From Branchiostoma lanceolatum (Eukaryota; Chordata; Leptocardii; Amphioxiformes; Branchiostomatidae): 64,000 nucleotides of DNA. Shown here piece after piece: positions 21,567-64,000 of the stretch. The position numbers and the translations under genes were made by a program. Each line of letters opens with the position of its first letter. Positions within the stretch are counted from its first letter, which is position 1. Below the pieces are notes generated by a model. The model ran no database searches, had not been told where the DNA came from, and was given only the letters and a program-made list of their open reading frames with translations. The stretch lies in the NCBI RefSeq assembly GCF_035083965.1, contig NC_089735.1, positions 11,332,501-11,396,500 on the forward strand, read 5' to 3'.

Positions 21567-23801
21567 CTAGGTAAGGTTGGCGTAATTAGTAAAATTAACA
21601 GTCCTTTTCCTGACGACAATGTACGACATGAGCACAACGACTACCCCAACGCCAATAAGAACACCGATCACGATCGCGATAGTGTTGCTGCCCTTATTTG
21701 CGTCTTCAGGGCATTCTTGAGCCGACGAAAACAGTCCGGACTTGACTCCAAACGGCTGAAGCTGAACTTGGCGTGCGAGGATGGACACGTCCTTGGTAAC
21801 GGTGATGTTGACATCGGCGGTACACTTGTAGGACTTGTCGCCGTCTGCGGAGAAGAAGTTCATCGTGTTGTTTGATATATGTCTGCGGGCGTTGGGGCTC
21901 TTAGTCCCGGGAAAAATGGACGGCAGCTCGGTGTATAAAATGTCGAGACTGGCTACACGGAACTGATTATTTTCTTTTACGAAGTCAAACGTCACGCTAA
22001 AGATGTCATAGAACGTCAAAGTCATATTTGAATGGTCAGAGTCACAGAATCCAGCAGCGTTTGCAGTTATTGGTAAGTTGAAAATGCTTGTGCCAGTTTC
22101 GCTGTCAGTTTTTGTGTAGATGATTTTGAACTGAAGGCCCATGTCAGCCAGCAGGCAGACATGACCTTTTGTGTCCTTGACCTTGTAATGGCCTTGAGGT
22201 GGTTCTGGAGGGGGTGTAAGAGGTTTGGGGGTCGTCATGATTGTCGTGGAGTTCTTGGCCGGGACTGTAGTCGTGCTAGGCGGTTGGTCGGTGGTCACAT
22301 TGCCAATGGGGAGGGAAGTGGCGGTAGTACTGGTAGGGGGGATGGTAGTCCCGTTGCCAATAGGGATTTCTGTAGGTGGGATGGTAGTCCCGTTGCCAAT
22401 AGGAATGTCTGTAGGTGGGATGGTAGTCCCGTTGCCTATAGGGATTTCTGTAGGTGGGATGGTAGTCCCGTTGCCAATAGGGATTTCTGTAGGCGGGATG
22501 GTAGTCCCATTGACAATAGGGATTTCTGTAGGTGGGATGGTAGTCCCATTGCCAATGGGGATTTCTGTAGGTGGGATGGTAGTCCCGTTGCCAATAGGGA
22601 TTTCTGTAGGTGGGATGGTAGTCCCGTTGCCAATAGGGATTTCTGTAGGTGGGATGGTAGTCCCGTTGCCTATAGGGATTTCTGTAGGTGGGATGGTAGT
22701 CCCGTTGCCAATAGGAATTTCTGTAGGCGGGATGGTAGTCCCGTTGCCAATAGGGATTGCTGTCGGTGAGATGGTAGTCCCGTTGGCTAGAGGGATTTCT
22801 GTAGGTGGGATGGTAGTCCCGTTGCCAATAGGGATTTCTGTAGGTGGGATGGTAGTCCCGTTGCCAATAGGGATTTCTGTAGGTGGGATGGTAGTCCCGT
22901 TGCCAATAGGGAGTTCTGTAGGTGGAATGGTAGTCCCGTTGCCAATAGGGATTGCTGTAGGTGGGATGGTAGTCCCGTTGCCAATAGGGATTGCTGTAGG
23001 TGGGATGGTAGTCCCGTTGCCAATAGGGATTTCTGTAGGTGGGATGGTAGTCCCGTTGCCTACAGGGATTTCTGTAGGTGGGATTGTGGTGATGTTACCT
23101 GGAGTTGTGACCGGATACGGCTTGGTAGTCTTGCGAGGAGAGGGCGTTGTTATGGAGTCGCTACATGCCGTTGACTCCGAGAAGTTCCCACTGGTTGGAA
23201 CGTGGAACGGTTGGACTTGGATGGTGTGAATAGCCAGGGTAGACACTGGTCTGTCAGGGTCAATAAAAGTCAACACCTGCTCTCTGTCGCACGTGTACGA
23301 ATGAGGAAAGTAGAAACTGGACGACGTCAGAAAGTCTTGAAGACCAGACAAGACAGACGATACCTTCTCATTCGCGTTCTTCGCTTCTGGAAACATGTCT
23401 GGTTGTAAGGTGTAGTATATGGAAGCACTTGCGAGCCAAAACGTGTCTCTGGTTCGGACAAATGCGAAGTCCAATCCAAACGTAGCATCTGGGTCAATGG
23501 CGTCATCTGCGTTGAACCTCAGATCTATGTGAGCATTGTAGTCGTTATCCACGTGTGAACAGTGTCCGCTGGCGGTGCTATCTGCTGGAAGAGCGAAGGA
23601 CGCAGTGGCCGTGGTGTTGTCGGTCTTCGTGTAACCCACGTAAAACATGGCGGCGATATTCAGCAGCAAACATTCGTCATTGTAGACATCCTTCAGCACA
23701 AAGTGCCCAGCAGGTGGCGGAGGAATACTGCCGTGTGAACTGACCTGTACCCCAACTGTTAGGGCCAGCAGGACAACCACGTTATGGAACACTTTCACCA
23801 T
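21567..23801 (-). CDS. LAMP-like lysosomal membrane glycoprotein with mucin repeat (LAMP-like 1)
   Basis: Single-exon frame of 744 residues from the Met at 23801, chosen because a clean signal peptide (MVKVFHNVVVLLALTVGV) follows; an in-frame Met 18 codons upstream adds unlikely sequence. Domain order: LAMP-type luminal domain (about 30-215, paired Cys, ending QPFHVPTSGNF), a spacer of about 19 repeats of 13 residues (IPIGNGTTIPPTE; each has one NGT glycosylation sequon plus Thr/Pro for O-glycans), a second LAMP domain (about 530-690, PPQGHYKVKDTKG to QPFGVKSGLFSS), one TM helix (about 704-728) and a short tail ending NYANLT. YANL fits the YxxPhi lysosomal sorting signal. Architecture matches LAMP1/2-type proteins of late endosome/lysosome membrane. 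First of four minus-strand paralogues. Confidence 0.85.
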   Translation of the reverse strand: MVKVFHNVVVLLALTVGVQVSSHGSIPPPPAGHFVLKDVYNDECLLLNIAAMFYVGYTKTDNTTATASFALPADSTASGHCSHVDNDYNAHIDLRFNADDAIDPDATFGLDFAFVRTRDTFWLASASIYYTLQPDMFPEAKNANEKVSSVLSGLQDFLTSSSFYFPHSYTCDREQVLTFIDPDRPVSTLAIHTIQVQPFHVPTSGNFSESTACSDSITTPSPRKTTKPYPVTTPGNITTIPPTEIPVGNGTTIPPTEIPIGNGTTIPPTAIPIGNGTTIPPTAIPIGNGTTIPPTELPIGNGTTIPPTEIPIGNGTTIPPTEIPIGNGTTIPPTEIPLANGTTISPTAIPIGNGTTIPPTEIPIGNGTTIPPTEIPIGNGTTIPPTEIPIGNGTTIPPTEIPIGNGTTIPPTEIPIGNGTTIPPTEIPIVNGTTIPPTEIPIGNGTTIPPTEIPIGNGTTIPPTDIPIGNGTTIPPTEIPIGNGTTIPPTSTTATSLPIGNVTTDQPPSTTTVPAKNSTTIMTTPKPLTPPPEPPQGHYKVKDTKGHVCLLADMGLQFKIIYTKTDSETGTSIFNLPITANAAGFCDSDHSNMTLTFYDIFSVTFDFVKENNQFRVASLDILYTELPSIFPGTKSPNARRHISNNTMNFFSADGDKSYKCTADVNITVTKDVSILARQVQLQPFGVKSGLFSSAQECPEDANKGSNTIAIVIGVLIGVGVVVVLMSYIVVRKRTVNFTNYANLT
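22340..23090 (-). repeat. 39-bp coding minisatellite, about 19 copies
   Basis: Period 39 bp, encoding IPIGNGTTIPPTE with variants IPVG, LPIG, IPLA, IPIV and final-residue changes E/A/D/S. It forms the hinge between the two LAMP domains. All other frames across it are shadows. Confidence 0.95.
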
Positions 23802-24229
23802 TTTGTAATCAAGAGAATGTACATGTGGTGGTTCGAAGTCGGCAAGAGGGGGCAATAAGACTTTTCTAGGTCACCTGGAATGACTGTTTACTTGACTTAA
23901 GGGGAAGGATCAATGATATCAGAATCAGGGGCAAATCGGACTTTCTTCCCAGTATGGTTCAATTGGAAAATTCTACCTGCCTTTAGGGGTACGATGACCT
24001 AGCTGACGTTGCATCTTTTGAAAAAAAAGGTCTCATTTCCCCGGTTAAGTTTGTATTGGAAGTATGGACTCAATGAGCATTGGTTTTTCCCTAAAAGCAG
24101 CCGAACTATGAACTCATGAGTGGGACGAGGCCTGTCAACGTGACACCGCGTGTCATAGTACAGTCACGCGGACGGAGGGGTGAGGGACAGCGCAACGACC
24201 GTCTTCTCGTTTTGGTTGATCTTTTTTGG

Positions 24230-24587
24230 TAGCCTCTACCAGGCTAGCCTCCGATGCAGACTGCTTCCGGCTGTTTTCTTTTTCAAGTTACAGCTTTTAT
24301 ACTATTACATTTTCCTTTTTGTTGGCGCCGAGTGGACGCAGACTCCTTCCCGGCCAGCAATAAGAAAAAAATGTTATAGTATAAAAACTGTAACTTGAAA
24401 AAGAAAACAGCCGGAAGGAGTCTGCATCGGAGGCTATACCGGGCTCCATAGGTCGCTGGAAAAATAGTAGAAATTGGCCAAATAGACGGATAATATGCTA
24501 GAGGAGTCCGCTAAAGGAGTTACAGTTTGCGACCTATTTTTCTATCGACCTATTTTTCTATCGACCTTTGGAGCCTGGTAGAGGCTA
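24230..24587. mobile_element. Outer hAT-like MITE (TIR TAGCCTCTACCAGGC)
   Basis: Left end TAGCCTCTACCAGGC; right end in reverse complement TAGCCTCTACCAGGCTCC. It is flanked by CTTTTTTGG (24221-24229) and CTTTTTCGG (24588-24596), an 8-9 bp duplication with one change. A second element is inserted 15 bp inside its left end. No protein. Confidence 0.7.
24245..24436. mobile_element. Inner foldback MITE nested in the outer one
   Basis: 192 bp with long inverted arms (about 75 bp) starting TAGCCTCCGATGCAGACT. Flanked by TACCAGGC (24237-24244) and TACCGGGC (24437-24444), an 8-bp duplication with one change. Removing it restores the outer element's TIR. Confidence 0.75.
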
Positions 24588-24729
24588 CTTTTTCGGTGCC
24601 TTTGTCTAAAGATGTCTACCTCTCTTAAAAGTCACCACATCTCCTAATGAAATCACGTTGTTAATGAATCATAGTTACCCCGCTTATCGAATTGGAAAAT
24701 AGACTAATATGCATCATTGATTCTTCGCT

Positions 24730-25093
24730 AGCTCTACCAGCTACTGAACTGTAAGCGTGCGTACATGTAAGTAGGGCGAAACGTGATTGTCGTCGATGAA
24801 CGCACGAGGCACTGAAACGTGACAACCACACGCACAACTGACTCTTTCTAACCCTAAAACTCTAGCCTTTAACACATATGTATGTACACCTTACTGACAG
24901 TATACGATAAAAGCTCTACCAGCTACTGAACTGTAAGCGTGCGTACATGTAAGTAGGGCGAAACGTGATTGTCGTCGATGAACGCACGAGGCACTGAAAC
25001 GTGACAACCACACGCACTACTGACTCTTTCTAACCCTAAAACTCTAGCCTTTAACACATATATATGTACGGCCTACCGACAGTATGCGATAAT
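24730..25093. repeat. 182-bp tandem duplication
   Basis: AGCTCTACCAGCTACTGAAC starts at 24730 and again at 24912. The two units are nearly identical up to CAGTATRCGATAA. The rest of 23856-26133 has no supported gene. Confidence 0.9.
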
Positions 25094-26133
25094 AAATGTA
25101 TCATTCTGTAGAGCTCAAATGGCTGCTTCAACGATATAGAACACTTAACTACAAAAACATTTCTGGCTTGAAGTATCATGGATTTACTTGAGTTTCTTGT
25201 GGTTAAAGAGAGGCATCCATTCAATGAGAAAATGGTCAGTAAACTACTTATACATACGGTACAAACTGAAAAATGAGTCGCCACGTTTTTCGTCGGGAGA
25301 ACAATAGGTTTGGACTTTGACCCGTCAACGACCTCTGGTGGATGACGTGCAGGGCCTTCAAACAGGGCTACGTGTTCTAAGGGGTGTAGAGAATGACTGA
25401 CAGGTGTCAGAAATGATTGACATGTAAAAAACTACACGTACACTGAAAGTGAATAAAAAAAGTCACGAGAGGAAGTTCATTTTTGCAATGCTAATTTACA
25501 TGCGCCGAGCTGTCACAGAAAAGGCTGTGTCAAAGATCGCATCAGTGTTTCGTGTGATATTTTTGACCAACTTAACATATACTTTTTGACTTGCAGAAGG
25601 ACATGCGATGCGCATTAATTCAGAAAAAAACAAAGTAAAACGTTTTAAACCTTTCGTCAAACATAATCAACTCAGACCTGGGTATTGATGAATATTTAAC
25701 TGCACAGAAATGGATGACGTATTTTAAGCACGCGCCCCCATCGTGTTCAACTCGTTCTGGGACTTGTAGAAAAAAATGTTGACGACTACTTTTAGGGTTA
25801 CAATCCACCTGACGACGAGATTTTCGTCTACTGATTGGCATAACCATATACTGTATAAACAATTACTGGCTAAACAGTATCAGTAGTGCTGAATTGGCTA
25901 TTTTAGAATATCTTCCAATGTTCTAAATATATCTGCGACGAGATCTGATTAAAGTTGCTTACACTCATGATTTTACAGATAATGTCAAAATGCATTTCTA
26001 TTCCATGGAATAGGTTCTCAAATACAATTTGTTGGTACAACATTTTGTGCTGATTAGGGTAGTAAATTTAAAGGTTTTGGTTGTTGCTACATTTTGTAAC
26101 ACAGTATACCAGAGTACATCAAGCGTGTATACC

Positions 26134-26895
26134 TTAATCACTGTTCAGACTGTGGTAGTCTTGACGCTTTCTTTCGCTGAAAACAACGTACGCAAAAACT
26201 CCACCAAGCAGCGCTAAGCCGGCAATGACACCAATCACAATTGCTGCAATGTTGAAACTGCTCTTGTTACCCGTGTCCTGAGAGCAGACTTGAGCTGACG
26301 AAAACTTGCCCGACTTGACTCCAAACGGCTGAAGCTGAACTTGACGTGCGATGATGGACACGTCCTTGGTGACGGTGATGTTGACATCGGTGTTACACAT
26401 GTAGGACTTGTCGGCGTCTGCGGAGAAGATGTTCATCGTGTCGTTTGAAACATGTCTGCGGGCGTCGGGGCTCTTAGTCCCGGGAAAGATGGACGGCAGC
26501 TCGGTGTATGAGATCTCGATGGTGGACACGTGGAAGCGACTGACGCTACCCCCTTTCACTGATTTAACGAAGTCGAATGTCACGTTAAAGGTGTCATCGT
26601 GAAACATCAGCGTCAAACTGGAGTCGTTCGAACCACAGAACCCTGTTGTGTTGACACTTTGTGGTAGACTGAACACACCGGTGCCAAATTTCCCGTCATT
26701 TTTTGTGTACAGGATTCTGAACTGCAGGCCCATTTCGGCAATCAGACAAATTTGACCCGTGGTGTTGTCTTTCACTTCAAAGTGGCCTTGTGATGGTGAC
26801 GAGCCGACATTTCCTCGGTGGGAAGTGGCTTCAATGCAGAAGACAAACACGAAAAGCGCAGATGCTGTCAACCAGGACATTTTGGCGCATGACAC
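26134..26895 (-). CDS. LAMP-like protein with one luminal domain (LAMP-like 2)
   Basis: 253 residues in one exon. Signal peptide about 1-24 (KMSWLTASALFVFVF), one LAMP-type domain (about 35-205: SQGHFEVKDNTTGQ, ELPSIFPGTKSPDARRHVS, QVQLQPFGVKSGKFSS), several N-glycosylation sites, a TM helix (about 216-240), and a tail ERKRQDYHSLNSD with YHSL as YxxPhi signal. The domain is closest to the membrane-proximal domain of the neighbours. A single-domain layout is like CD68 or DC-LAMP in outline; orthology is not claimed. The start context (M-S-C-A-K-M-S) resembles M-C-A-K-M-S in the next two genes. Confidence 0.85.
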   Translation of the reverse strand: MSCAKMSWLTASALFVFVFCIEATSHRGNVGSSPSQGHFEVKDNTTGQICLIAEMGLQFRILYTKNDGKFGTGVFSLPQSVNTTGFCGSNDSSLTLMFHDDTFNVTFDFVKSVKGGSVSRFHVSTIEISYTELPSIFPGTKSPDARRHVSNDTMNIFSADADKSYMCNTDVNITVTKDVSIIARQVQLQPFGVKSGKFSSAQVCSQDTGNKSSFNIAAIVIGVIAGLALLGGVFAYVVFSERKRQDYHSLNSD

Positions 26896-27878
26896 GACAG
26901 CCTAATTCCGAAATGTCCGTCGATTTGAACCTGCAAGTAGACACTGAACCCAAGGGGGGCGCGAAGTTATGTTTGCCTACAGAATGGACCATGAACTTTG
27001 AGCAGATCTACCAGCAAAAACAGGTTCATATGTCTGGCCTCCACCTTTATAGATTTACCTATCATCGTCAGGTTGCCTGGCGGCTATGCCAACAAGGGAT
27101 CTTTGCTGAAGATGACCTTGCCAGCCTACGTGCCCTTGTGAGGGTCATGACTTCTTCGTCTAGCGCTTATGACATACCAAAGTTAGGGAGAAGATTTGTG
27201 AGGATAGTTTGAGAAGGTGCCAAGGTTAGAAGAAGTATTGAAAACACCCAAGACCAGATATAAGTTGCAGCATTGTTGTTAGTTTTTAATCAAAGACTGT
27301 GTCTTTGTACAGTGCAGAAAATAAGTCCATCATCTTGTCAACAAGTACAACACCTTTACATCCTTTATCTTTAGGTTTGAGACCATAGGATGGGAGCCGA
27401 ATGCATGGCTAACGTAGTCACATTATCTTACACAATCCTTATATCGCTTATCTTCACTAATAGGATTATAAAATGCACTTTAGACCCATATGCGCAGAAG
27501 GCATCGAGCATCTACGAATGCTGTAAACATATTATTAATAGCTGAATGTAAACATTAGTACGTGACATTCAGCTGCTTACAAAGAAATATGTGACAAAAA
27601 TTACATCTAGATCTGTTCATCAACATCTAGTGTGTAGTAGATCCCTACAAAGTCATTTCTATCTTAAGGTACAAGATACAAGTTCTCAATAGACAACAGC
27701 CAAAACAGTTCCTACTTCGGAATTAAGTTGTTAAAATAAGAAAGAAGCTGAGATTTTCTTACATGCGATGCACAATTTCTATGCGATGCAAGCAACGCCA
27801 ACTGAGAAAACAACAACATTATCAACAATAATAACATCCACGATGTGGACAAGATGAACTTTTACTAGTCGCAAAGCT
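26896..27878. repeat. 3' flank of LAMP-like 3, duplicated downstream
   Basis: From about 27195 (TTTGAGAAGGTGCCAAGGTT) onward this non-coding stretch matches 30805-31670 in the same order, up to the stop of each gene. It shows that LAMP-like 3 and 4 were duplicated together with their 3' flanks. Confidence 0.75.
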
Positions 27879-30008
27879 TTAATTCAGGGCTGTGAACTTT
27901 TGTGGCTTCGCCTTCCTTTTGCTGACGACAATGTAAGCAACGAACACGACAACGACGACCACGGCAACAACAACGCCGATGATAACAGGTACCGTATTGG
28001 TGCCTGAGTCCTCCGAGCAATCTTCAGCTGACGAGAACTTGCCCGACTTGACCCCAAACGGCTGAAGCTGAACATTGCTGACCACGATGGACACGTCCTT
28101 GGTAACGGTGACGTCCACATCGGCGGTACACTTGTAGGACTTGTCGCCGTTTGCGGAGAACATGCTCATCGTGGTGTTTGAAACATGTCTGCGGCGGTCG
28201 GGGCTCTTAGTCCCGGGAAAAATGGAGGGCAGCTCGGTGTACGAGATCTCGATGGTAGACATGTTGAAGCGGCCGACGGTTTTTCCTTTCACGTCTTTGT
28301 CTTTGAGGAAGTCAAATGTCACACTGAAGGCGCCATCGTGAAAATTCAAGGTCAAACTTGAGTTGTCAGATGTACAGAAACCGGTTGCCTTGGCGGTTTT
28401 GGGTAAGTCAAATGTAGCAGTGTGTATCTTCTTGTCAGTCTTTGTGTAATTGACCTTGAACTGCAGGCTCATGTTGGCCAGGAGGCAGACGTGACCTTTT
28501 GTGTCTTTGACCTCGAAGTGACCTTGAGGTGGTTCTTTAGGAGGTCCGGTGGGCTTAGGAGTGGTCATTATGGTCGTAGCGTTCTCGATCGGGACCATGG
28601 TACTGGTCGTGTTTGATGGTTCAACGGTGGTCGCGTTACGAATGGGTACCACGGTAGTATCGTTGGAAGGAAGAATTGTTGTCACGTTGCCAATAGGAGC
28701 CATGGTGGCCGTAGTGGTGTTGACCGCAGGGATGGTGGTGGCGTTTTGAATGGGCATCATCGTCGATGGTAAGTCTTGGGCACACTCGGATGCCTCGCTG
28801 AAGTTCATACTCTTGACCGCGAAGGGTTGAACCTGGAGCTCGGAGACCATCAGACGGACCGTGCTGCCAACGTCGAAGAACTGCAGTGATTTGCACAAGT
28901 ACGACTTGCCGAGGTCCGTTTGGAACATAGACTCTTGCTGTACTTCATTCACTGCTGTCCCTGGAGATGTCGCGTTCGGGAAGTGCTTTGGGTCCCGTAC
29001 GTACCCGACCGAAGCACTGACGAGTTCGAAGCTGTTGTTCCCTTTCGTCTTGAAGGTTACTGTAAGGTTAAAGCCCTTGAAGAAAGAGAGCGCCATGGTC
29101 GCCTTGGAATCACCACAAGCACCCCCGACGGTGCTATTTCGAGGGAGAACGTAGGTGGCGTTACGTGTGGTGTTGTCTTTCAGCTCGTACTCGACATGGA
29201 ACTCCACACCTGCAGACAGCAGGAAACACGCGTTTCCTTTGGTATCATTGAGAGCGAAATGTCCGACAGGGATGAGGGGAGTTATTGGGGTGGTGTGGGG
29301 GACAGGTCCCGGTGTAGTCGTGATGTCGTCCGGGCATGTCTCAGGGGAAGAGAACTTTCCACTGCTGGGAACATTAAAGGGTTGGACTTGGACAGAATGG
29401 ATGGTCAAAGTAGACTTTGGCCTGTCTGGGTGACTGAAGGTGAACTCCAATGTCTGGGGTTTATCACAACGGTACGAATGGGGAGACAAGGCGTTCGACG
29501 ACGTGTAGAAATACTGCTCGTTAGATATTGTAGCACTCGCCGTGGTGTTTGCATCCTTCGCACCGGGAAACATGTCAGGCACGAGTTTGTAGTACAAGGT
29601 GGCACCCGACAGCGAGAAATGAGTTAAGATCACGTTTCTTTCAAATGTAAGTTCTAATCCGAACGTTCCATCCAAACCGAGATCATTAATGTCGCCGAAC
29701 GCGAGGTTCAGGTGGGCGTGTCTTTCGTCGGTGAGATGTGAACAGTCTCCGCTTACCGTACTGTTGGTGGGGAGGGCGAAGGACACGATGGCCGTGGTGT
29801 TGTCCGTCTTGGTGTAGCCCACGTTGAACATGGCGGCGATGTTTAGAAGCAGACAGGGTTCGGGCTTACCGATCAACGGCTTCTTGTTCAACACGAAGTG
29901 GCCTTCGGGAGGAGCGGGCTCGTCCGCCGTTAACCCGACCGAGGCCCGAACGGACGACGCGAACAGAACGACGAGGATTGTCGGAATAAGCGACATCTTT
30001 GCGCACAT
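27879..30008 (-). CDS. LAMP-like protein with three luminal domains (LAMP-like 3)
   Basis: 709 residues from the Met at 30008 (MCAKMSLIPTILVVLFASSV signal peptide); the frame is open 49 codons further upstream but that part looks non-coding. Three LAMP-type domains: about 30-240 (EGHFVLN to QPFNVPSSGKFSS), 246-411 (VGHFALNDTKG to QPFAVKSMNFSEASE), and 494-666 (QGHFEVKDTKG to QPFGVKSGKFSS), the last two separated by a Thr-rich NATT-containing spacer. TM about 670-693. The tail ends SKRKAKPQKFTALN, where Phe stands in the position of the sorting Tyr of its neighbours. Single exon. Likely a heavily glycosylated lysosomal or cell-surface membrane protein. Confidence 0.85.
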   Translation of the reverse strand: MCAKMSLIPTILVVLFASSVRASVGLTADEPAPPEGHFVLNKKPLIGKPEPCLLLNIAAMFNVGYTKTDNTTAIVSFALPTNSTVSGDCSHLTDERHAHLNLAFGDINDLGLDGTFGLELTFERNVILTHFSLSGATLYYKLVPDMFPGAKDANTTASATISNEQYFYTSSNALSPHSYRCDKPQTLEFTFSHPDRPKSTLTIHSVQVQPFNVPSSGKFSSPETCPDDITTTPGPVPHTTPITPLIPVGHFALNDTKGNACFLLSAGVEFHVEYELKDNTTRNATYVLPRNSTVGGACGDSKATMALSFFKGFNLTVTFKTKGNNSFELVSASVGYVRDPKHFPNATSPGTAVNEVQQESMFQTDLGKSYLCKSLQFFDVGSTVRLMVSELQVQPFAVKSMNFSEASECAQDLPSTMMPIQNATTIPAVNTTTATMAPIGNVTTILPSNDTTVVPIRNATTVEPSNTTSTMVPIENATTIMTTPKPTGPPKEPPQGHFEVKDTKGHVCLLANMSLQFKVNYTKTDKKIHTATFDLPKTAKATGFCTSDNSSLTLNFHDGAFSVTFDFLKDKDVKGKTVGRFNMSTIEISYTELPSIFPGTKSPDRRRHVSNTTMSMFSANGDKSYKCTADVDVTVTKDVSIVVSNVQLQPFGVKSGKFSSAEDCSEDSGTNTVPVIIGVVVAVVVVVVFVAYIVVSKRKAKPQKFTALN

Positions 30009-30424
30009 CGTGAACAGGTGTAGTGTTGGTGTGACTCGACTCTCACGTGGGAAGGGGTCAGTCATGGGGGCGTCATCGACATCCTGTTTACTCAAAGTTT
30101 CGGCGGTACTTTGATAAGAACAGGTTGTTTTGAAAGTTAACAAAACAAGTGTCAAACACCAAAAAATCCACGTCCGTAACCTCTAAGCTATCACAAAGAC
30201 CCTACTACTTACTGATATTAAATAATACCAATTATTCAAAAATTTTTAGCGTAAAGAATCTAGCAATCAAGAACTATATATGCCCATTCCTACCCACCTA
30301 TCACATGATGGTTAAGCCCAAACAAACGTCCCCCTCGAGGACAACGACCTTTGAACATTAAGTCATGGTTCACGTGATTCGTCACAGCCGCACCTTTCTC
30401 TGCGGTCATGACCTTTCCGTCTAG

Positions 30425-30780
30425 TTGTTAAAGGCAACCAAAGCAATATTAGGGCCAAAGAATGGAAATAAAAAAAAATGCTGAAATCTTTATGGTAGTG
30501 ACATTTACTAACATTGTTTAGCACATTTGCGTAATAACTTCATACTTTTAGGATTTTAAAACCGCGCAAAATAGTGCCGTACGATGATCCCCTTAGTTTC
30601 GCGAGCCTACAAAACTCCGGCCACGATTTTCAGCGAGTTCTCACATCACAACAACGTCGTCTTTTTGCATCATGGACGTTGTCATACATTGTAATAGTGT
30701 TGTTTGAACTAATCATGTATAGAAATGACTAAATATATTGACTTTCAAAATCCGATTTTTCGGACCCTTATATTGCCTGG
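30425..30780. repeat. Interspersed repeat R1, uninterrupted copy
   Basis: Shares long blocks with 46287-46865, for example ATGCTGAAATCTTTAT, ACGATGATCCCCTTAGTTTC and GTAGTGTTGTTTGAACT-like text. This copy lacks the MITE that interrupts the other. Confidence 0.8.
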
Positions 30781-30798
30781 GTTTCCTTTAAGAGGAGT

Positions 30799-31670
30799 CT
30801 CTGCGAGGACACTTTGAGAAGGTACTAAGGTTAGAAGAGGTAATGAAAACATCACGGACCAGATATCAACTTCATTGTTTGTTTTTAATCAAACACCGTG
30901 AATTCTCCTTTGCACAGTGTAAACTAATAGCAGAGCAAAGCCCATCAGCTTGACAATTATCTGTACATCCTCTATTTATAAGTTTGAGACAATAGAATGG
31001 AATGTAATTTCATGGATAATGATAAGTTTATTGCAAATTCATGCCCGTAGGCTAATTGCATGTTGACAGCAGTGTCGAAGTACAAATGTAAAGTAAAGCA
31101 AAAGGTATATATGTAATACAAGATCATACTACATGTATATTGCTATTCTACAGTAAGTTTCTATATCTACGGTACTAATGCGGGGTTTGCTAATGTTGAT
31201 ATGCTACCATACACAATATCAATTTTGCTTGTCTTCTCTAAGATCTCGATGTACTTTAGACCCAAATGTACAGAAAACATCGACCGTGTGTTAATGCAAT
31301 GTACATATACCTCAGTTTGAAGAGTTCTGAATGATAATTCTCAATACAAACATCAAGTGACATCGAGCAGAAATCACAGACATATTCTACTGATGAGCAA
31401 TATACGTCTTATAGCATCTCCAAATAAAACGTTACATTTCTATTTCTCAAATTAGATATAAGATATTTTGGTTATAGGTTGGGACAAAGTAAAAATGCTG
31501 AAAAAACTAGATCAAATGGATGATGTTCAACCACTTCTAAACAGTTTCTTACGTCTACGGTTTAAGCTGTTGTTGACATAGTTATATATAAGAAAGAATA
31601 TATTCGAAGCTAAGACTTTCTTACAGTGTTGCAAGACGTGGACAAGATGAAATTGTACCAGTCGCAAAGC
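30799..31670. repeat. Duplicated 3' flank of LAMP-like 4
   Basis: Counterpart of 27195-27878. It carries an extra insertion near 31010-31150 beginning with TTATTGCAAATTCATGCCCG, a repeat tail also seen near 17990. Confidence 0.7.
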
Positions 31671-32396
31671 CTAATTCATGGTTGTTAGGTTTTCGGCATT
31701 CTCCTTCCTTTTGCTGGCGACAATGGTGTCCGCAGTGGTGTTGAGTGCAGGAAAGGTTTTGGCGTCTTGAATGGGCATCTTTGACGATGGAGGGTCTTGG
31801 GGGCACTCGGAAGCCTCGCTGAAGTTCATACCCTTGACCTTGAAGGGTTGCACTTGGAGCTGGACGACTCCCAGCTTGACCGTACTGCCAATGTCGAAGA
31901 CTTGAAGTGACTTGCACAAGTACGACTTACCGAGGGCCGTTTTGAACGGAGACTGGCCGTCGGTCTTTTCTTCATTCGCCGCTGTACCGGGAGATGCCGC
32001 ATTCGGGAAGAGCTTTGGGTCCCGTACGTACCCGACCGAAGCACTGGCGATCGCAAATTTTCTGTCATTTCTATTCTCGAAGGATATGGTGAGGTTGAAG
32101 CCTTTGAAGAAGGAGAGCGCCATTGTTGCCTCATACTCACCGCAATCACCACTGACGGTGCTGTTTCGAGGGAGAACGTAGGTGGCGGTCCACGTGGTGT
32201 CATCTTTCAGCTCATACTCGACTTGGAACGTCACACCCACAGACAGCAGAAAGCACGGGTTTCCTTTAGTATCATTGAGGGTGAAGTTGCCTACAGGTGG
32301 AGCGGGTCCGTCCGCCGCGAACCCTACTGAGGCCCGAACGGACAACACGCACAGGACGGTGAAGATGGTTGGAATCAGCGACATCTTTGGGCACAT
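31671..32396 (-). CDS. LAMP-like 4: single domain, transmembrane segment deleted
   Basis: 241 residues from the Met at 32396 (MCPKMSLIPTIFTVLCVLSV signal peptide); the frame opens three codons earlier. One LAMP-type domain (about 32-205: VGNFTLNDTKG, VGYVRDPKLFPNA, QPFKVKGMNFSEASE) that matches domain 2 of LAMP-like 3. The spacer that follows (MPIQDAKTFPALNTT) then joins directly to SKRKENAENLTTMN, the equivalent of the cytoplasmic tail. The third domain and TM helix are missing through an in-frame deletion, apparently at a short ATGG/AATGG microhomology. The product should be secreted, or the gene is decaying, but the frame is intact. Confidence 0.8.
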   Translation of the reverse strand: MCPKMSLIPTIFTVLCVLSVRASVGFAADGPAPPVGNFTLNDTKGNPCFLLSVGVTFQVEYELKDDTTWTATYVLPRNSTVSGDCGEYEATMALSFFKGFNLTISFENRNDRKFAIASASVGYVRDPKLFPNAASPGTAANEEKTDGQSPFKTALGKSYLCKSLQVFDIGSTVKLGVVQLQVQPFKVKGMNFSEASECPQDPPSSKMPIQDAKTFPALNTTADTIVASKRKENAENLTTMN

Positions 32397-32897
32397 CGAG
32401 AACAAGTGATGTTTTCGTGTGGCTCAACTCTGGTGTGACAGGCAAGCTGGTCTGTTACGCCGAAGAGCGGTTATACAAGCTTTATAGATACAGATCACGA
32501 GAGGTGAGGTCGATGGGGGCGTCTTCGTCATGTCTGGTTACTTAAAGTTTCGGGGTTCTTCCATCAAAACAGATTGTTTTGAAGGGTAACAAAAGAAGTT
32601 ACTACATCCGAACATCCACAAAGATCCGTTTGCTGGTATGACATGATGACAACCATCAAAAGATTTATCCGAAAATTGCCTAGCAGGTAACTACTGCATG
32701 TCTACTCTACACATACCTACCTGTCGGATGGTGGTTAAGCCTTAACAAACGTCCATCCAGAGGACACGGACTTTTGATCATTTCACATTAGGCTTTAATT
32801 AACTAGGTCAACGCATGTCATACACAGTTGTTTTTGTTTGACCGCCGCAAGTCGCTATCGAGGAAAACAAGAAGGCGAACTAAATTTAGATAAGGTT

Positions 32898-43189: not shown

Positions 43190-43960
43190 CCATCCTCAAC
43201 TAAGGTTGCTTTTTCACGTTAGCTACTATTGATAGTGCAGTACTAGTGTGGCTTTGCAAATTGGCTCATCATCACACCTCCCTACTTGTAGCTCACCATC
43301 CAAAATGACGAATGCAATCCCTTAGGGCCTCATCATACATGTACTAGTCAGTCATGTCACAACATGTGGCATCATGTGGCGCAATCGGTAGGGTGTTCAG
43401 CCCAGAACCGAGAGGTCCTGGCCGGGTTCAAAACCACTGATCATGATATGCCCTGATGCTGTGCATTTGGGAAAGGCACTTTACATGACTTTCCTCACAT
43501 CACTTATAATATAGCTGTAATTTACAGTGTAAATGAGTACCTACCTTCGGTTAAGGACGTCCCTCGGATAGGACATTAAATGGAGGTCCCGTGTTTGAGA
43601 AAAGCCACACGTAAAAGAACCCACGTAAAAGAGCACGTATAAGAACCCACCTCACTTCTTGAAAAGAGTAGGGGTCTTTCCCTGTGTTAAAGTCTCAAAA
43701 CCTACAGACAGCAGTTATACGGCCCTTTATAATATATATAAATATGGCCGCAAATGGGGCAATTGTCGTAATTGAGGTCAACTAGGCCTGAGTTAGTGCG
43801 GAATTGGCAGCCGCTCCAGACCCTTGCAATCTAGCCCTGCCAATTGTAAACTTCTCGCAATTCAGCCCCCCATTTATAGCTGCGAAGAGAGAATAGTCGG
43901 CCCACCCAATAATTATAGTCATCCAAGCCGACCCTGGGATCGAACCAGATTGGAGTTGGA
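43190..43960. mobile_element. SINE-derived sequence upstream of RDH
   Basis: A plus-strand head at about 43372 (GTGGCGCAATCGGTAGGG, CCGGGTTCAAAACC) with the TTTGGGAAAGGCACTTTA body motif. Flanking text near 43290-43330 (CCATCCAAAATGACGAATGC) matches 50280-50310. A second head-like end (GATCGAACC) lies near 43940. Confidence 0.6.
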
Positions 43961-44159
43961 CTTTAATACTGTTAATTAATAATATAAGGTTAACAGTATG
44001 CCTGAAAGGAAATATGACAAGTTTCGTAGAGGTGCAACAGATTACACAAAAACTAATAGTCTAAGTTAATTGATTATTATAACAAGGAGGTTTTACAGAA
44101 GTCTATTTTGGGTCGATTTTCATCCGAAAAGGGATCTAAGAGGGTCTGCATGCCCTTTT

Positions 44160-45415
44160 TCGTGAAGCGTTAAGAGCGATTTTAATTCACCGTTAATCGT
44201 TACCGGCCGCCCTGAATTTACCGTTAAGCGTTATCGGTATATTAATCGTGAAGCGTTACTGGTCGTTCTAATTCCTCGTTAAGCGTTATTTGTCATCCTG
44301 AATTCAACGTTAAGCGTTATTGAGTAATTCCTCGTTACGCAGGAAAAAGCATTTCAGTGGGTCAAGATTTCAAAATTTTCTCCAAGGAGCACACGGCTCC
44401 GGCGAAAATATGTCGGTAGGGTGCCCCCCACAAAATTTCAAGCTGAAACACTTCTTTTTTTCACTCTACCAGCAAAGTTTTCTCCTCAAAATTCAGGAAA
44501 TTGAGCGTTTCGCGGTTCAAGATTTAAAAATTTTCCCCGGCTGCATGCCGGGCCTCCGTCGAAAAGAATTGTGAGGAGCGCGTCGACCCCCAAAACTCAA
44601 GTTGAAACTCGTCTGTATTTTTTCACAAACAGAGATATCATTAAACTTAACTTACATTACCAGTAATATTTGCCCATCGAAATGCAAGAAATAGCGTTTC
44701 TGGGTGTCAAGAATTTTCCCCGGGAGCATGTCGCAGCTCCGGTAGCCTGGATACCAGACCTTTCGCGCGATGCGATGATAAGCCTTTTTGGCCGGGGAAG
44801 ACCTGGTAGTAGGGATAGAGTTGGCACCCGGGCGCTTTGGCAGCCGAACCCTGATATCTATCGCCCCGCGCGAGAGATAATTAGTGGGCCGTGCGCTGTC
44901 TGTGGCGGCGGCGCGAGTTGCTTCCCCGGCCGAAGGATTAGCGCCAGGAGCGCGGTGGTCTGGCACCCAGGCTACAGCTCCGGCGAGGTCTGGAGTGCGT
45001 GACGCCCCTCAAAAATCAAGCTGAAACTCTTCTGTATTTTTTTTTTCAAATAGAGATGTCATTAAACTTAGCTTACTCTTCAGCAAAATCCCCCCCTCAG
45101 AATGCAGGAAATATCGTTTCAGAGGGTCAAGATGTCAAAATTTTTGTCGCGCCTTCGGCGCTCGTCATCGTGATCATGAAATTTCCTGTCGCCGCCAAAT
45201 TTCGGGTTCGGAGCAGGCGTGCGAGAATGGCATAGCGTAATAGGGCTAATAGGTCTCTTGCCACAAGATCAGGACGACTAGTGGCATAAAAACGTCGTCT
45301 TCAGGGGTATCTCATGTTCTAAAAATGCTGAATTTACCGTTAAGCGTTATCGGCCGGCCTGAATTTACCGTTAAGCGTTATCGGCTGGCCTAAATTTACC
45401 GTTAAGCGTTGCCAG
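44160..45415. repeat. Tandem-repeat block with CGTTAAGCGTTA arrays at both ends
   Basis: About 31-bp units built on ACCGTTAAGCGTTATCGGCC occur at 44160-44330 and again at 45335-45410. Between them are about four degenerate units of 150-190 bp, each starting with a CAGGAAAT ... GGTCAAGAT phrase (near 44340, 44494, 44685, 45104). The last gap is lengthened by the MITE at 44743. No coding potential recognised. Confidence 0.65.
44743..44974. mobile_element. MITE with 9-bp target duplication
   Basis: TIRs TAGCCTGGATACCAGACC and, inverted, TAGCCTGGGTGCCAGACC. Flanked on both sides by CAGCTCCGG (44734-44742 and 44975-44983). GC-rich interior without a gene. Confidence 0.8.
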
Positions 45416-45444
45416 GACCCCCCCATACAGACCCTCATCTAAAC

Positions 45445-45596
45445 TAGCCTCCTTCGCAGACTTCAAGAACGGCGGCATATACAGTATATTGGGGAGGGGG
45501 GGATGACACACACAAGGGAGTTATGTAGCCGAGGGAGTTGTGTAGCCGAGGGGTGACCGCCGTTGCCGCCGTTCTTCAAGTCTGCGAAGGAGGCTA
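45445..45596. mobile_element. 152-bp hAT-like MITE with perfect 8-bp target duplication
   Basis: TIRs of about 33 bp beginning TAGCCTCCTTCGCAGACTTC with one mismatch. ATCTAAAC flanks both ends (45437-45444, 45597-45604). The tip TAGCCT is shared with the elements at 24 kb and 44.7 kb. Confidence 0.9.
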
Positions 45597-45604
45597 ATCT
45601 AAAC

Positions 45605-46016
45605 AATACCTGACAGATTTTGTTTCAATGAGCAGCAAAAGATGAAGCCAACCTGAGCTAAGAAGAAGGTAACGTTACACAGGACACAATAGATATGCAG
45701 AGGCCACTTTCTTGTACTTTCTTCCACCTTGGTTCATAGACACCTCACCATCTCACTGGGTCAAAGTAGTCTTTGACAGGTCACAACCAATCGAACTGTG
45801 GGGGTGTTTACTGACGTACTAATTACCCTATTATTCATGCTTATCTATCTTTACCTTTTAATAAATAGCAATAAAAAAAATTGTATGCTACTTAGTAATT
45901 TTTCTGTTGAATGTACTGATTAAAAGATAGGGTTTGTTGGTAGTAGATATTACTACATCCCTAAAATCCAAGTGGTTAAGCCTATGCTGTGGTTGCCATG
46001 ACGTTACGCCCTAAAA
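45605..46016. promoter_or_regulatory. TTC12 5' flank
   Basis: Unique AT-rich DNA directly upstream of the TTC12 ATG, on the RDH-facing side. It must hold the TTC12 promoter if exon 1 is as modelled, but I see no firm TATA box or named site. Confidence 0.3.
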
Positions 46017-49000
46017 ATGGCGGACAAAAACACTTCGAAAGAAGAACTGGACAAGTTTCTTCAAAATGTGGACGATATCCGTAAGTTTTATACCTTCTAA
46101 GAATGTAGTTTGTAAGAGTACATGACGGAGCTCTGTTTTTATGATAATTAATTCGCGCACACAGACGTTGGATTGACGTTTCAAACTTCTTTTGTGATGC
46201 AATGTTGTATATTTGGGGGAGGGGGGCACCGTCGCTTGCGGAAGTTTCTAGACGTTTCACGGCCATGCAAGACGCTTCGACGTCATTTAAGGCAACCAAG
46301 GCAATATATCAGGGACCTAAGAATGAAAATTCAAACAAAAAATGCTGAAATCTTTATTGTTGTGACATTTGCTAAACAGTCCTACCTGACCGAAAATTCT
46401 ACTCTACTCTACTCTGTCTAGTGTCTAGCATACTGTAAATGCATTTAAGTTTGCGTGGTTTTTATTTCGCCCTAAGGCGAAATGGAGTGTTCGCGGTGGT
46501 TTTAAGTTTGCGGCAGTGCTATATAATCACATACTGCTACAGTATTGGACAAAAATGTTTGCGGGTGAAACGAAAACCGGGAACATAAAACCACCGCGAA
46601 CATTTCTGCATTTACAGTATTTGTGTAATAACTTCATACTTTGAGCATTCTAAAACCGTGCAAAAACATGCCATACGATGATCCCCTTAGTTTCACGAGC
46701 CTACAAAAACCCTGGCGACCATTTTCAGTGAGTTCTCACATTACAACAAAGTCATAATTTTGCATCATGGACGTCGTCACGTCGCTATAAATGTTGTGGT
46801 AGTGTTGTTTGAACTGATCATGTATAGAAATGACTGAATAAATTGACTTTCAAAAGCCGATTTTGCCTTTGAGATAGGACGCATGTACAGTAACACTACT
46901 TTCATCCTAGGCCTAATTCAGAACCCTGACAAGATCTATTTACATATTTGGCTTTGATTGTATCTACCAACTGCACACTTGATCATGACGGTGAATCGTC
47001 GAAGGTGATTAACGCCTTGGCCCGACAGAGTGTCTTTGCGAAAATTAATGTTATAATATGTAGAATCATGTCCCTATACCCTTGCGGTGCTTGGTTGAAA
47101 ATGAGCAGAACTCATTCCCCAACTCCATTCACCACATATAAAAATTCTACATCATAGCCTTTTCCGTAAGCCCGGGGTAACTGAATACACAAGTCGTGAT
47201 AATCATTGCGCTTTTAACATGAAAGCATCATCATGCATATGTTCATTATGTTCTCTTCTGTTACGAGGTTCCACGTCACTCTCATACTTACATAACTGTA
47301 ACATATTCGATACTGTTCATGCTTACATCCACTCTACAGGCAGATTCACTTAATGATAAATAACAACTTGTAATGTCTATTGTTATTTTCCTTTTATCCA
47401 TTTTGTATTTATGCATGTCATTATGTCTCTTTGTTGTATGTGTTGAGTAGAAGGCTTCAGATAAGCAATCGCTTCCTGCCTAAAACTCAGTAAACATATG
47501 CGAATAGAATAAAATAAAGCATCATCTTTCACCTCAAATTAGCTGTTGATTGCTTTTTACCTTTCTTATTCCCAGAGTCCATCATCAAGGGAATGGCATC
47601 TGGGGATGCGGAGGCCCAGCAGAAAGCTTGTAAAGCTGCAGATGAGAAACTGGGGAAGATTAGGAGAACGCCTGTGGACAACACTGGAGTTAACAAAACT
47701 GTCATCAATCAGAGGGCCTTCGACGAGCTGGCCAGGGGACAGCAACAGGTAGTGCACATCTGGAAATAGTCAAAGTATTTTTTTTGTTTCCACTGACTGA
47801 ATAATTTCATGAGGTTGGAGAATCACTGGATAACTAGGTTCTTTATTCACAACCAATGTATGTCAAGTACGTACAATGCCTAGAGTCCTCAACTTAATGA
47901 GGTTAAGCATGTAATAACAAAGAAGAAAATAAAGAAGAAGAAGAAGACCAGGACATACAATCACAGCTGTCATGACGTTTCGGTGACTGTCTATCACCTT
48001 CCTCAGGGCAATACTGGCTGCTACATGTACACTCACTGCAGACTAGGTTTTATTTTTGATAATGATTATTCTTGTATAAATGGCAATACTTTACGTTTGG
48101 ACCACATTTATTACAGTACTTTATGTTTGGGACCTACTCGTAGCCTGCAGTGTAGAAGAGTACCAGTCAGTATTTGTCACCAAAACGTTGGGTGGGTGTG
48201 TAAACTGTAAATGCAGAAATGTTCGCTGTGGTTTTACATTTGTAGCTTTCTGCCCACCTATGACTGTAGTGCTACTATGTTTCAAACGTGAACTTAAAAC
48301 CACAGAGAACACTCCATTTTCTCCCTACCTCGAAATAAAAACTATGCAAACTTAAGAAAAAAGTTAAATGCATTTACAGTATCTTCCACTTTCCACTGGC
48401 TTTTTATTTATCAGACCCGTGAACTTATGTTAGCATTTATCATTTAGTTGATAGAATTCTAAAATTATTTGATTCTAAGATTGTATTGAATTGTGATATT
48501 GATATGGTTGTTTTTAGTTGATGTTTTTATTCCTTTATTTCAGGGACCTCAAGCTGCTGGAGAAATGGGCCAAGGTATTATCAATGATGTATTATTGGTT
48601 ATCAATTATTCAGTCAGCAGAATATTATCTATGAATAAAAAATCAATTTATATTTATCAATAGATACATGTAGGTAATGAAACTGGAATTTAGAATATTT
48701 GTTACATAAAAGATATATACAAATGTAGCTAAGATTAATGAAATACTTGATTTTGAATGCTGATGAAAGAAGTACAAAATACATGTAATACTCATAATGA
48801 TAAACAGGAATGTGTGGTATATATGATTGTGAAACCTGCTGGGAGTACATGTATGTGTACACATGAAATTGGACTACGTTACAGGCATAAAAGATGATGA
48901 ATTAGACACACCCTAGAAACCCTACTTGAAGATCTGCCATGTGTGATACTTGGAAGTCATTTATTTTTGTGAGGACTTAATTTTGGGCTAGGAGGGGAAA

Positions 49001-55371: not shown

Positions 55372-55520
55372 GCAATGGCCTAGTTGATAGAGTGTTCGCC
55401 TTGTGCACGGTAGGTCATGAGTTCGAACCCCAGCCGGGTCATTCCAAAGACTTTAAAAATGGCACATACTGCTTTCTCTGCTTAGCACTCAGCATTTGGG
55501 AAAGAGTATCACGAAACTGT
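55372..55520 (+). mobile_element. tRNA-derived SINE, plus strand
   Basis: A-box GCAATGGCCTAGTTGATAG, B-box GAGTTCGAACCCC, then a body with CAGCATTTGGGAAAGAG. A tRNA fold with a closed acceptor stem is not seen. Confidence 0.7.
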
Positions 55521-56810: not shown

Positions 56811-57327
56811 TATAAGGGTTTTAAGAATTACACCCAACGGCCATGGTATCGAATCGCCGCAAATATCGCAATGCATCATGGGTAATTTTAAGAGGGTCTG
56901 TCTGTAATTATACCTTGTAGCAAAGGACAAAATGTCGATTTTTTTTAAATTTTGGGTGGTGGTAAGGCCTTGGTCCAATTGTAGAAATATGGGTAAGTTT
57001 TGGGTTAACTGGTGGTCACCGGTTGCCATGGAAACGGTCACTTTTTAAAAGACGGCGGATTTCTATCCGCAAAGGCTCAATCTCGTCCAGAATAAACCAT
57101 CTTTAGCCTACAGAAACGCCACCTAAGGCCACAGCAAGTAAATTTTATGGATGACATCCTCCGCAGACTCCAAAATTAATGAGATAGGGCGAAAAAAACA
57201 AAAGGCGGGCCCCCCAAAAAAAGATTCCTATATTTTCACATTTTTAGATCATAAGTCTTGTTAAACAAGAATTGAGGCGACGAAATATGATATCATGACC
57301 AACAGGTCTTTTATTCCTGTATTCAAC

Positions 57328-57362
57328 CAATGAGGTTTCATATATGATATAAAACCTCCTTG
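57328..57362. mobile_element. 35-bp palindromic micro-insertion with 7-bp duplication
   Basis: A near-perfect palindrome with arms CAATGAGGTTTCAT and, inverted, CAAGGAGGTTTTAT. ATTCAAC directly flanks it on both sides (57321-57327 and 57363-57369). Confidence 0.8.
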
Positions 57363-57372
57363 ATTCAACAGT

Positions 57373-60649: not shown

Positions 60650-61060
60650 AGACAGTACAACAAATGCAGAAAAGAGCTTGTTGTACCATCATCTGAACCA
60701 ACTACAATGGGTATTCATATGCGATGAATCACCTTGTATATACAGTTCAATTAACTAGACCCCCCCCCCCATTATTTATATGTCCTTGCTAGAACAAATG
60801 CAGAAAACAGCTTGTTATCATACCATCATGGGCAGGAACCACACTGCGTATTCATATGCAACGAAACACCTTAGACTGTCAACATTAAACTGTTCTTGCG
60901 TAATTGTACACAACTCAATTAAGTAGAACAAACGCAGAAAACAGCTTGTCATACCAAGGAGGTTTTATATAGATATATAAAACCTCCTTGGTCATACCAT
61001 CATGGGCAGGAACTTCACTGGGTATTCATATGCAATGAAACACCTTAGACTATCAACGTT
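60650..61060. repeat. Three ~135-bp tandem copies
   Basis: Units with ACAAATGCAGAAAACAGCTTG ... CATACCATCATGGGCAGGAA-like text begin near 60655, 60790 and 60925. The third is interrupted by the 36-bp palindrome. Confidence 0.8.
60955..60990. mobile_element. 36-bp palindromic micro-insertion with 7-bp duplication and paralogous empty site
   Basis: Starts CAAGGAGGTTTTATAT and ends with its inverse, broken only at the centre. GTCATAC flanks both sides (60948-60954 and 60991-60997). The second tandem unit (near 60815) shows the same region without the insert. Confidence 0.85.
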
Positions 61061-61449: not shown

Positions 61450-64000
61450 CATGGTTCCTTAATATTCATGAACATTCATGAACATTCATAATTTTTCCTA
61501 AATATTCATGAACGTTCATGAAAATTTATGAAATTCATAAACGTTCATGAATGTTCATGAATTTTCATGAATTTTTATGAATTTTAATGAATTTTCATGA
61601 ACGTTCATGAATTGTCATGAATTTTCATAAATTTTCATGAACGTTCATGAATTTTCATGAATTTTCATGAACGTTCATGACTTTTCATGACTTTTCATGA
61701 ATTTTCATGAATTTTCATGAATTTTCCTGAACGTTCATTGAACTTTCATGAACGTTCATGAATTTTCATGAATTTTCATGAATTTTTATGAATTTTCATG
61801 AACGTTCATGACTTTTCATGAATTTTCATGAATTTTCCTGAACGGTCATTGAACTTTCATGAACGTTCATGAATTTTCATGAATTTTCATGAATTTTTAT
61901 GAATTTTCATGAACGTTCATGAATTTTCATGAATTGTCATGAATTTTCATGAACGTTCATGTACTTTCATGAATTTTCATGAATTTTCATGAATTTTCAA
62001 GAATTTTCATGAATTTTCATGAAATTTTCATGAATTTTCATGAACGTTCATGAATATTTATGAATTTTCATGAACGTTCATGAATGTTCATGAATTTTCA
62101 TGAATTTTTATGAATTTTCATGAATTTTCATGAACGTTCATGAATTTTCATGAATTTCATGAATTTTCATGAACGTTCATGAGAATTCATGAATTTTCAT
62201 GAATTTTCATCAATTTTCATGAATTTTTATGAATTTTCATTAACATTCATGAATTTTCTTGAATTTTCATGAATTTTCTTGAATTTTCATGAACGTTCAT
62301 GAATTTTCTTGAATTTTCATGAATTTTCATGAACGTTCATGAATTTTCATGAATTTTCATGAATTTTCATGAACGTTCATGAGAATTCATGAATTTTCAT
62401 GAATTTTCATGAATTTTCATGAATTTTCATGAATTTTTATGAATTTTCATGAACGTTCATGGATTTTCCTGAATTTTCCTGAATTTTCATGAACGTTCAT
62501 GAATTTTCATGAATTTTCATAAATTTTCATGAATTTTCATGAATTTTCATGAATTTTCATGAATATTTATGAATTTTCATGAACGTTCATGAATGTTCAT
62601 GAATTTTCATGAATTTTTATGAATTTTCATGAATTTTCATGAACGTTCATGAATTTTCATGAATTTTCATGAATTTTCATGAACGTTCATGAGAATTCAT
62701 GAATTTTCATGAATTTTTATGAATTTTCATGAACGTTCATGAATTTTCCTGAATTTTCATGAATTTTAATGAACGTTCATGAATTTTCATGAATTTTCAT
62801 GAATTTTCATGAATTTTCATGAACGTTCATGAATTTTCATGAATTTTCATGAATTTAAATGAATTTTCATGAATTTTCCTGAACGTTCATTGAACTTTCA
62901 TGAACGTTCATGAATTTTCATGAATTTTCATGAATTTTTATGAATTTTCATGAACGTTCATGACTTTTCATGAATTTTCATGAATTTTCCTGAACGTTCA
63001 TTGAACTTTCATGAACGTTCATGAATTTTCATGAATTTTCATGAATTTTTATGAATTTTCATGAACGTTCATGAATTTTCATGAATTGTCATGAATTTTC
63101 ATGAACGTTCATGTACTTTCATGAATTTTCATGAATTTTCATGAATTTTCATGAATTTTCATGAATTTTCATGAATTTTCATGAACGTTCATGAATTTTC
63201 ATGAATTTTCATGAATTTTCATGAATTTTCATGAATTTTCACGAAAATTCATAGATATTCATGAACGTTCATGAAAATTCATGAAAATTCATGAAAATTC
63301 ATGAAAATTAATGAAAATTCATGAACGTTCATGAATTTTCATGAATTTCCATGAACTTTCATGAACTTTCATGAATTTTTATGAATTTTCATGAATTTTC
63401 ATGAACGTTCATGACTTTTCATGAATTTTCATGAATTTTCATGAATTTTCATGAATTTTCATGAATTTTCATGAACGTTCATTGAACTTTCATGACATTC
63501 ATGAAAATTCATGAATTTTCATGAATTTTCATGAATTTTCATGAATTTTCAAGAATTTTCATGAATTTTCATGAAATTTTCATGAATTTTCATGAATTTT
63601 CATGAACGTTCATGAATTTTCATGAATTTCATGAATTTTCATGAACGTTCATGAGAATACATGAATTTTCATGAATTTTCATCAATTGTCATGAATTTTT
63701 ATGAATTTTCATTAACGTTCATGAATTTTCATGAATTTTCATGAAATTTTTATGAATTTTCATGGATTTTCATGAACGTTCATGAATTTTCATGAATTTC
63801 ATGAATTTTCATGAACGTTCATGAGAATACATGAATTTTCATGAATTTTCATCAATTTTCATGAATTTTTATGAATTTTCATTAACGTTCATGAATTTTC
63901 TTGAATTTTCATGAATTTTCTTGAATTTTCATGAACGTTCATGGATTTTCCTGAATTTTCCTGAATTTTCATGAACGTTCATGAATTTTCATGAATTTTC
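61450..64000. repeat. 10-bp-period palindromic satellite (TTCATGAATT/TTCATGAACG)
   Basis: About 255 units of ATGAATTTTC type, with ATGAACGTTC units every few steps, run to the window end. TTCATGAA (palindrome) sits at nearly every unit junction and GAACGTTC is a second palindrome. There is a higher-order pattern: a block with CCTGAACGTTCATTGAAC and CATGTACTTTC at about 61726-61975 recurs at about 62878-63125, 1152 bp later. No gene. Confidence 0.95.

Follow-up and report, generated by a model that had tools for sequence, protein, structure and literature searches.

Palindromes between 7-bp target duplications in an amphioxus genome: possible excision footprints of a P-superfamily-like DNA transposon

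The transposase of the Drosophila P element makes its second-strand cut in an unusual position, 17 nt inside each terminal repeat (PMC7776569, PMC10983969), so that after excision the target duplications enclose the two tips in head-to-head order, each retained over up to 17 nt. The same element prefers nearby targets, about 50-150 kb (PMC7776569). Excision junctions of P{wa}, obtained mostly from Rad51-deficient flies, run from one duplication through as much as 17 nt of one repeat, a stretch of filler or microhomology and as much as 17 nt of the other repeat to the second duplication, and include lopsided, trimmed forms (PMC2895639, PMC5466332). The filler reaches 15 bases in Table 1 of PMC2895639 and is longer in some mutants. 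Examples from that paper are 17 nt + AC + 16 nt (three isolates), 16 nt + GT + 17 nt (one isolate) and the lopsided junction CATGATGAAATAA(CAT)G (three isolates). We took 44 of the 66 isolates in its Table 1, omitting 22 whose join extends into a duplication or beyond it: the length between the duplications is 28-40 bp in 28 of the 44, 34-36 bp in six and 17-20 bp in four. The commonest length, 30 bp, arose by microhomology and is seen in 14 isolates; 32 and 35 bp come next with five each.

Other members of the P superfamily are described as having shorter duplications at palindromic targets: in 1360 (Hoppel) the duplication is 7 bp long at 274 of 279 sites and the target motif is GTTNAAC (PMC3276498), and Galileo has 7-bp duplications, rarely 8, with the motif GTANTAC (PMC4168063). 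The hAT element hobo, with 8-bp duplications at 1,196 of 1,198 sites, also prefers a target of the GT...AC type, GTNCGNAC (PMC3276498). Non-autonomous P-type elements are reported from Anopheles gambiae, where the MITEs have 114-198 bp in common with their masters, 8-bp duplications and a repeated middle (PMC1562414). An amphioxus MITE, LanceletTn-2, is named in PMC5802833 and is of interest here as a MITE from a possibly related host.

We analyzed a 64-kb stretch of Branchiostoma lanceolatum DNA (the window), in which a preliminary description had reported two palindromes, at 57328-57362 and 60955-60990, with perfect 7-bp flanks, ATTCAAC and GTCATAC. Both are present exactly as reported; the first (c1) reads CAATGAGGTTTCATATATGATATAAAACCTCCTTG over 35 bp and the second (c2) CAAGGAGGTTTTATATAGATATATAAAACCTCCTTG over 36 bp. 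Each had been described as two inverted tips, CAAGGAGGTTTTAT, joined head to head. Two inverted tips are indeed found, with arms that are longer than claimed, at 17 bp, and an exact CAAGGAGGTTTTAT is present in each arm of c2 but in the right arm only of c1, where its left-arm counterpart is CAATGAGGTTTCAT. The arms of c2 are perfect and enclose GA, giving a 17+2+17 layout. In c1 the layout is approximately 17+1+17, with a T at the center: the arms pair at 14 of 17 positions, with mismatches at positions 4, 12 and 17, and since the 17th base is unpaired a 17+2+16 split is equally possible. The duplication is exactly 7 bp in both cases, with at least four flank mismatches at lengths of 5, 6, 8 and 9 bp. 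The coordinates of these and related features are collected in the table.

Table. Features of the palindromes, of related tips and of the flank copies of c2 (window coordinates).
Feature	Start	End	Strand	Sequence and remarks	Basis
c1 left 7-bp duplication	57321	57327	+	ATTCAAC	direct sequence check
c1 left arm, 17 nt	57328	57344	+	CAATGAGGTTTCATATA; two differences from the c2 arm	
c1 center base	57345	57345	.	T, between the 17-nt arms; possibly end-joining filler	
c1 right arm, 17 nt	57346	57362	-	CAAGGAGGTTTTATATC on the minus strand; only the innermost base unlike the c2 arm	
c1 right 7-bp duplication	57363	57369	+	ATTCAAC	direct sequence check
c2 left 7-bp duplication	60948	60954	+	GTCATAC	direct sequence check
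c2 left arm, 17 nt	60955	60971	+	CAAGGAGGTTTTATATA	
c2 center bases	60972	60973	.	GA; possibly end-joining filler	
c2 right arm, 17 nt	60974	60990	-	exact inverse of the c2 left arm	
c2 right 7-bp duplication	60991	60997	+	GTCATAC	direct sequence check
Diverged copy of c2 flank without insert	60770	60890	+	site reads gcttgttATCATACcatcat	alignment
Second diverged copy of c2 flank without insert	60640	60745	+	site reads gcttGTTGTACcatcat	alignment
c3 left flank	51044	51050	+	GTTACAT	
c3, 19 bp	51051	51069	+	CAAGGAGGTTTTATCCTTG; 14 nt of the left arm fused to 5 nt of the right arm (CCTTG)	
c3 right flank	51070	51076	+	GTAACAT; 6/7 match with the left flank	
Lone tip	44083	44095	+	CAAGGAGGTTTTA; possible end of a longer element or one-sided remnant	

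To place these structures against chance expectation, we scanned the whole window for inverted arms with at most 3 mismatches in 13, a length of 26-60 and exact 7-bp flanks. Such structures were found at 13 places: c1, c2 and 11 within a TTCATGA satellite (61.5-63.8 kb). The same scan of 30 dinucleotide shuffles gave none in 28 of them and one in the other 2. The exact 8-bp tip occurs six times in the window, where 1.5 occurrences are expected, and at least six were reached in 0 of 100 shuffles; one of the six, at 1742, adjoins a CA-repeat and looks unrelated. The observation made on c1 and c2 is real and not a matter of chance. The satellite itself occupies 61460-64000 as a long array of TTCATGAA units and variants, is largely self-complementary and dominates palindrome scans of the window.

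Evidence for insertion comes from the surroundings of c2, which lies in a short repeat present in three diverged neighboring copies; the palindrome interrupts neither of the other two. Positions 60818-60886 and 60992-61060 are 91% identical, and the c2 site reads gcttGTCATAC-[36 bp]-GTCATACcatcat. Because two copies of the flank read through without the palindrome, a single 7-bp sequence was doubled around the c2 insert: an insertion event took place at c2. The preliminary claim of a mobile element with a 7-bp target duplication is thus upheld as regards insertion, which for c2 is supported by the two flank copies. The copy at 60770-60890 has three extra bases at the target (GTTATCATAC versus GTCATAC), which may be chance or a small scar. 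A repeat at 57694 was rejected as an empty site for c1; it matches the right flank only, from AGTTACC just past the duplication.

Two sites can be added to those reported before, an asymmetric third copy (c3) and the lone tip at 44083. The flanks of c3 are one base short of a perfect duplication, and their GTTAC and GTAAC are mutually inverse, which lengthens the c3 hairpin. Given a tip, the chance of finding CCTTG within 25 nt and then a 7-mer that matches the upstream flank is about 3e-5. We also ran a scan blind to the tip, for CA...TG ends with an inverted repeat of at least 5 and 7-bp flanks with at most one mismatch; it finds c2 and c3, and 20 Markov simulations average 0.35 such finds, with no more than 2 in any of them. 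Thus c3 counts solely through the tip that it shares, as the tip-blind scan would not single it out. A further 8-bp case appeared in that scan at 17633-17648.

The lone tip has no partner end with a matching 7-bp flank within 6 kb downstream, and no large element was found behind it by flank matching over these 6 kb or by eye over 43901-46900. The right end of c2 has a loose counterpart at 55445, where the flank is GTCATTC and the 8-bp tip carries three mismatches; we dismissed it as a chance match. At 44742-44975, downstream of the lone tip, inspection by eye shows a unit with inverted ends GTAGCCTGGATACCAGACC and GGTCTGGCACCCAGGCTAC and with AGCTCCG on both sides (a 7- or 8-bp duplication, depending on the choice of border), which is probably another transposon. 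A MITE-like unit is located at 45445-45596, with inverted ends GCCTCCTTCGCAGACTTCAAGAACGGCGGC (96.97% over 33 bp) that are 86 bp apart and ATCTAAAC on both sides; taking the element as TAGCC...GGCTA makes the duplication 8 bp long.

The target sites carry a signature of the kind seen in the P superfamily, in which duplications are 7 or 8 bp long and targets are palindromic. The duplication is 7 bp in c1 and c2, with a 6/7 match in c3, and the three sites agree with GTNNNAC, a core picked after seeing them, at 10 of 12 positions (p 2e-5 to 3e-5). Agreement with the 1360 motif GTTNAAC is 12-13/18 (p 3e-4), with GTANTAC 11-12/18 (p 1.3e-3) and with GTATTAC 11-12/21 (p 9e-3), while two longer motifs, which we assembled from the half-sites in PMC4168063 with a spacing of our own choice, gave p values of 3e-4 and 2.5e-5. 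As six related motifs were tried on three sites, the core was chosen post hoc and hobo also likes GT...AC, we regard the signature as supportive, not decisive. The likeness of c1-c3 to 1360 and Galileo consists of the 7-bp duplications and palindromic targets.

A correspondence in layout is found with the P{wa} junctions. In c1 and c2, as in those junctions, a duplication is followed by up to 17 nt of each repeat, head to head around a small microhomology or filler, and by the duplication again: 17 + GA + 17 in c2 and 17 + T + 17 in c1 match the 17-nt cut of P transposase. The 14+5 form of c3 likewise resembles the lopsided fly junction, and its length falls within the 17-20 bp of four of the isolates considered above. 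The tips start with CA, as they do in Drosophila P and in zebrafish Pdre2. The two systems also differ: fly P has 8-bp duplications and the tip CATGATGAAATAACATA, whereas c1 and c2 have 7 bp and CAAGGAGGTTTTATATA, and the fly junctions were recovered in experiments, whereas c1-c3 are seen in a genome sequence with their parent unseen.

We therefore favor, at about even confidence, the interpretation of c1, c2 and c3 as excision footprints of a P-superfamily-like DNA transposon with terminal inverted repeats starting CAAGGAGGTTTTATATA; what commends it over a very small MITE is the arm length, together with the lopsided c3 (14+5) and target sites of the P type. In this scheme the transposon would insert at GTNNNAC-like sites, duplicating 7 bp, and its transposase would later excise it. 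One strand would be cut at the element border and the second 17 nt into each inverted repeat, leaving a 17-nt 3' tail on each flank. Cellular end-joining would then fuse the tails, with a base or two added (c1, c2) or with most of one tail lost (c3), and the end product would be head-to-head tips between target duplications, with nothing mobile left. This account, the likeliest of those considered, is ordinary in mechanism: natural P-type excision scars outside flies. Of the origins proposed in the preliminary description, the remnant of a larger element with these tips comes nearest, except that the process would be excision followed by end-joining instead of internal deletion.

Several observations weigh against excision footprints. 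The 17-nt fit could be a coincidence, because there are only two full copies and the 17th base of c1 is unpaired. The cut at 17 nt is reported for Drosophila P, with its 8-bp duplications, and not for a 7-bp relative, and the commonest fly junction among the 44 isolates is 30 bp, not 35-36. The junctions differ (T in c1, GA in c2, another in c3), but the centers of c1 and c2 can still be brought into alignment by allowing small indels (ATATAtGATAT / ATATA-GATATAT), which is what descent from one ancestor would produce. Finally, three scars without a clear intact element in 64 kb make an odd ratio: excision would lead one to expect at least as many elements as scars, and if the ratio were typical there would be thousands of scars genome-wide, which would suit a multiplying MITE better. 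The preference of P for nearby targets, or a biased window, could account for this ratio.

No longer element with these tips was found within the 64-kb window, and no transposase was found with Pfam among the 19 window ORFs scanned (9 + 10 of the 47 listed). These ORFs gave a protein kinase, a rhodopsin-type GPCR and LAMP-like proteins, in keeping with animal DNA, together with some repeat-driven or weak matches. Several ORFs with LAMP-like luminal domains lie on the minus strand at 21567-32405, and this region includes a minisatellite with 78-bp spacing (22333-23090); another minisatellite, with 66-bp spacing (18193-19042), lies inside an ORF of 584 aa.

Searches outside the window were also made. 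Paired-tip patterns gave 0 matches in viral contigs and 0 in the prokaryote genomes searched, which is what one would expect of a repeat from an animal. For the 17-mer on its own there are 19 matches in viral contigs, which we rejected as relatives of the palindromes: none of the 19 has a matching 7-bp flank, only one has the inverse tip anywhere on its locus, and in all 19 the start of the tip lies about 30 nt or less from an ATG, which gives them the look of phage ribosome-binding regions. In the open-access literature, searches for the tip 14-mer, its inverse and an 11-mer returned no transposon paper by title, and neither did searches for the smallest or palindromic MITEs; among the matches listed for MITEs, footprints, Galileo and amphioxus elements, no description of the c1/c2 palindrome appeared.

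The strongest rival, which we consider possible though doubtful, is that of the preliminary description: a minimal MITE, here a 35-36 bp palindrome moved by a transposase from elsewhere, with c3 as a copy whose hairpin was later partly lost. Shared tips at three sites with 7-bp duplications, the flank copies of c2 that lack the insert, the alignable centers and the clustering of several copies in a window that yielded no longer element all suit it. MITEs are normally roughly 100 bp long or more, with room for transposase binding sites, whereas the present palindromes measure 35 and 36 bp, and the copies in 64 kb amount to two full ones and one partial. Transposition of Drosophila P needs internal binding sites, and c1 and c2 have none of this kind; moreover, with ends one or two bases apart there would be no DNA to loop between transposase subunits. 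The Anopheles gambiae P-MITEs are alike in non-autonomy, P-type ends and target duplications, but c1 and c2 are unlike them in being far shorter than the 114-198 bp common to those MITEs and their masters, in their 7-bp rather than 8-bp duplications and in having almost no middle (PMC1562414). A minimal MITE would also give no special reason for 17-nt arms or for the 14+5 form of c3. What survives of the preliminary proposal is insertion with a 7-bp duplication; the arm length, c3 and the target signature fit excision better.

A variant of this idea, which we consider unlikely, is that the palindrome itself is mobile: fused bare tips would still be recognised, excised and reinserted, so that old scars would be re-mobilised as an extremely small transposon. 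A length of 35-36 bp is, to our knowledge, well below any workable transposon size.

Somewhat more unlikely still is that the palindromes are what internal deletion or aborted gap repair left of a transposon from another superfamily, such as hAT, with no 17-nt staggered cut, which corresponds to the second alternative of the preliminary description. The tips of hAT elements often fit YARNG, a pattern that CAAGG matches, and targets of the GT...AC type are also preferred by hobo. However, hAT excision alters only a few bases at the duplications and leaves no 17-nt stretches of the two ends like those seen here. The 8-bp duplication of hAT elements is also absent: the 8-bp flanks mismatch at six positions in c1, seven in c2 and seven in c3, and the exact 7 bp of c1 and c2 contrast with the near-invariant 8 bp of hobo (PMC3276498).

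The reading of c1 and c2 as chance palindromes or as hairpins with a function, for instance in regulation, in either case flanked by repeats through accident, draws on the abundance of palindromic satellite in the window and on the strong fold of c2 as single-stranded DNA (-17.7 kcal/mol, z -9.15), and is highly improbable in view of the shuffles, the two diverged flank copies from which c2 is absent and the lack of any Rfam match across the window at gathering score.

If c1-c3 are P-type footprints, the unusual staggered cut of 17 nt that biochemical work established for Drosophila P could be read in another animal from fossil sequences, and in a branch of the superfamily with 7-bp duplications. 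Short palindromes with target duplications may then be misfiled as tiny MITEs, and genome-wide tables of such scars would reveal the cut length and the repair habits of transposases that have never been purified.
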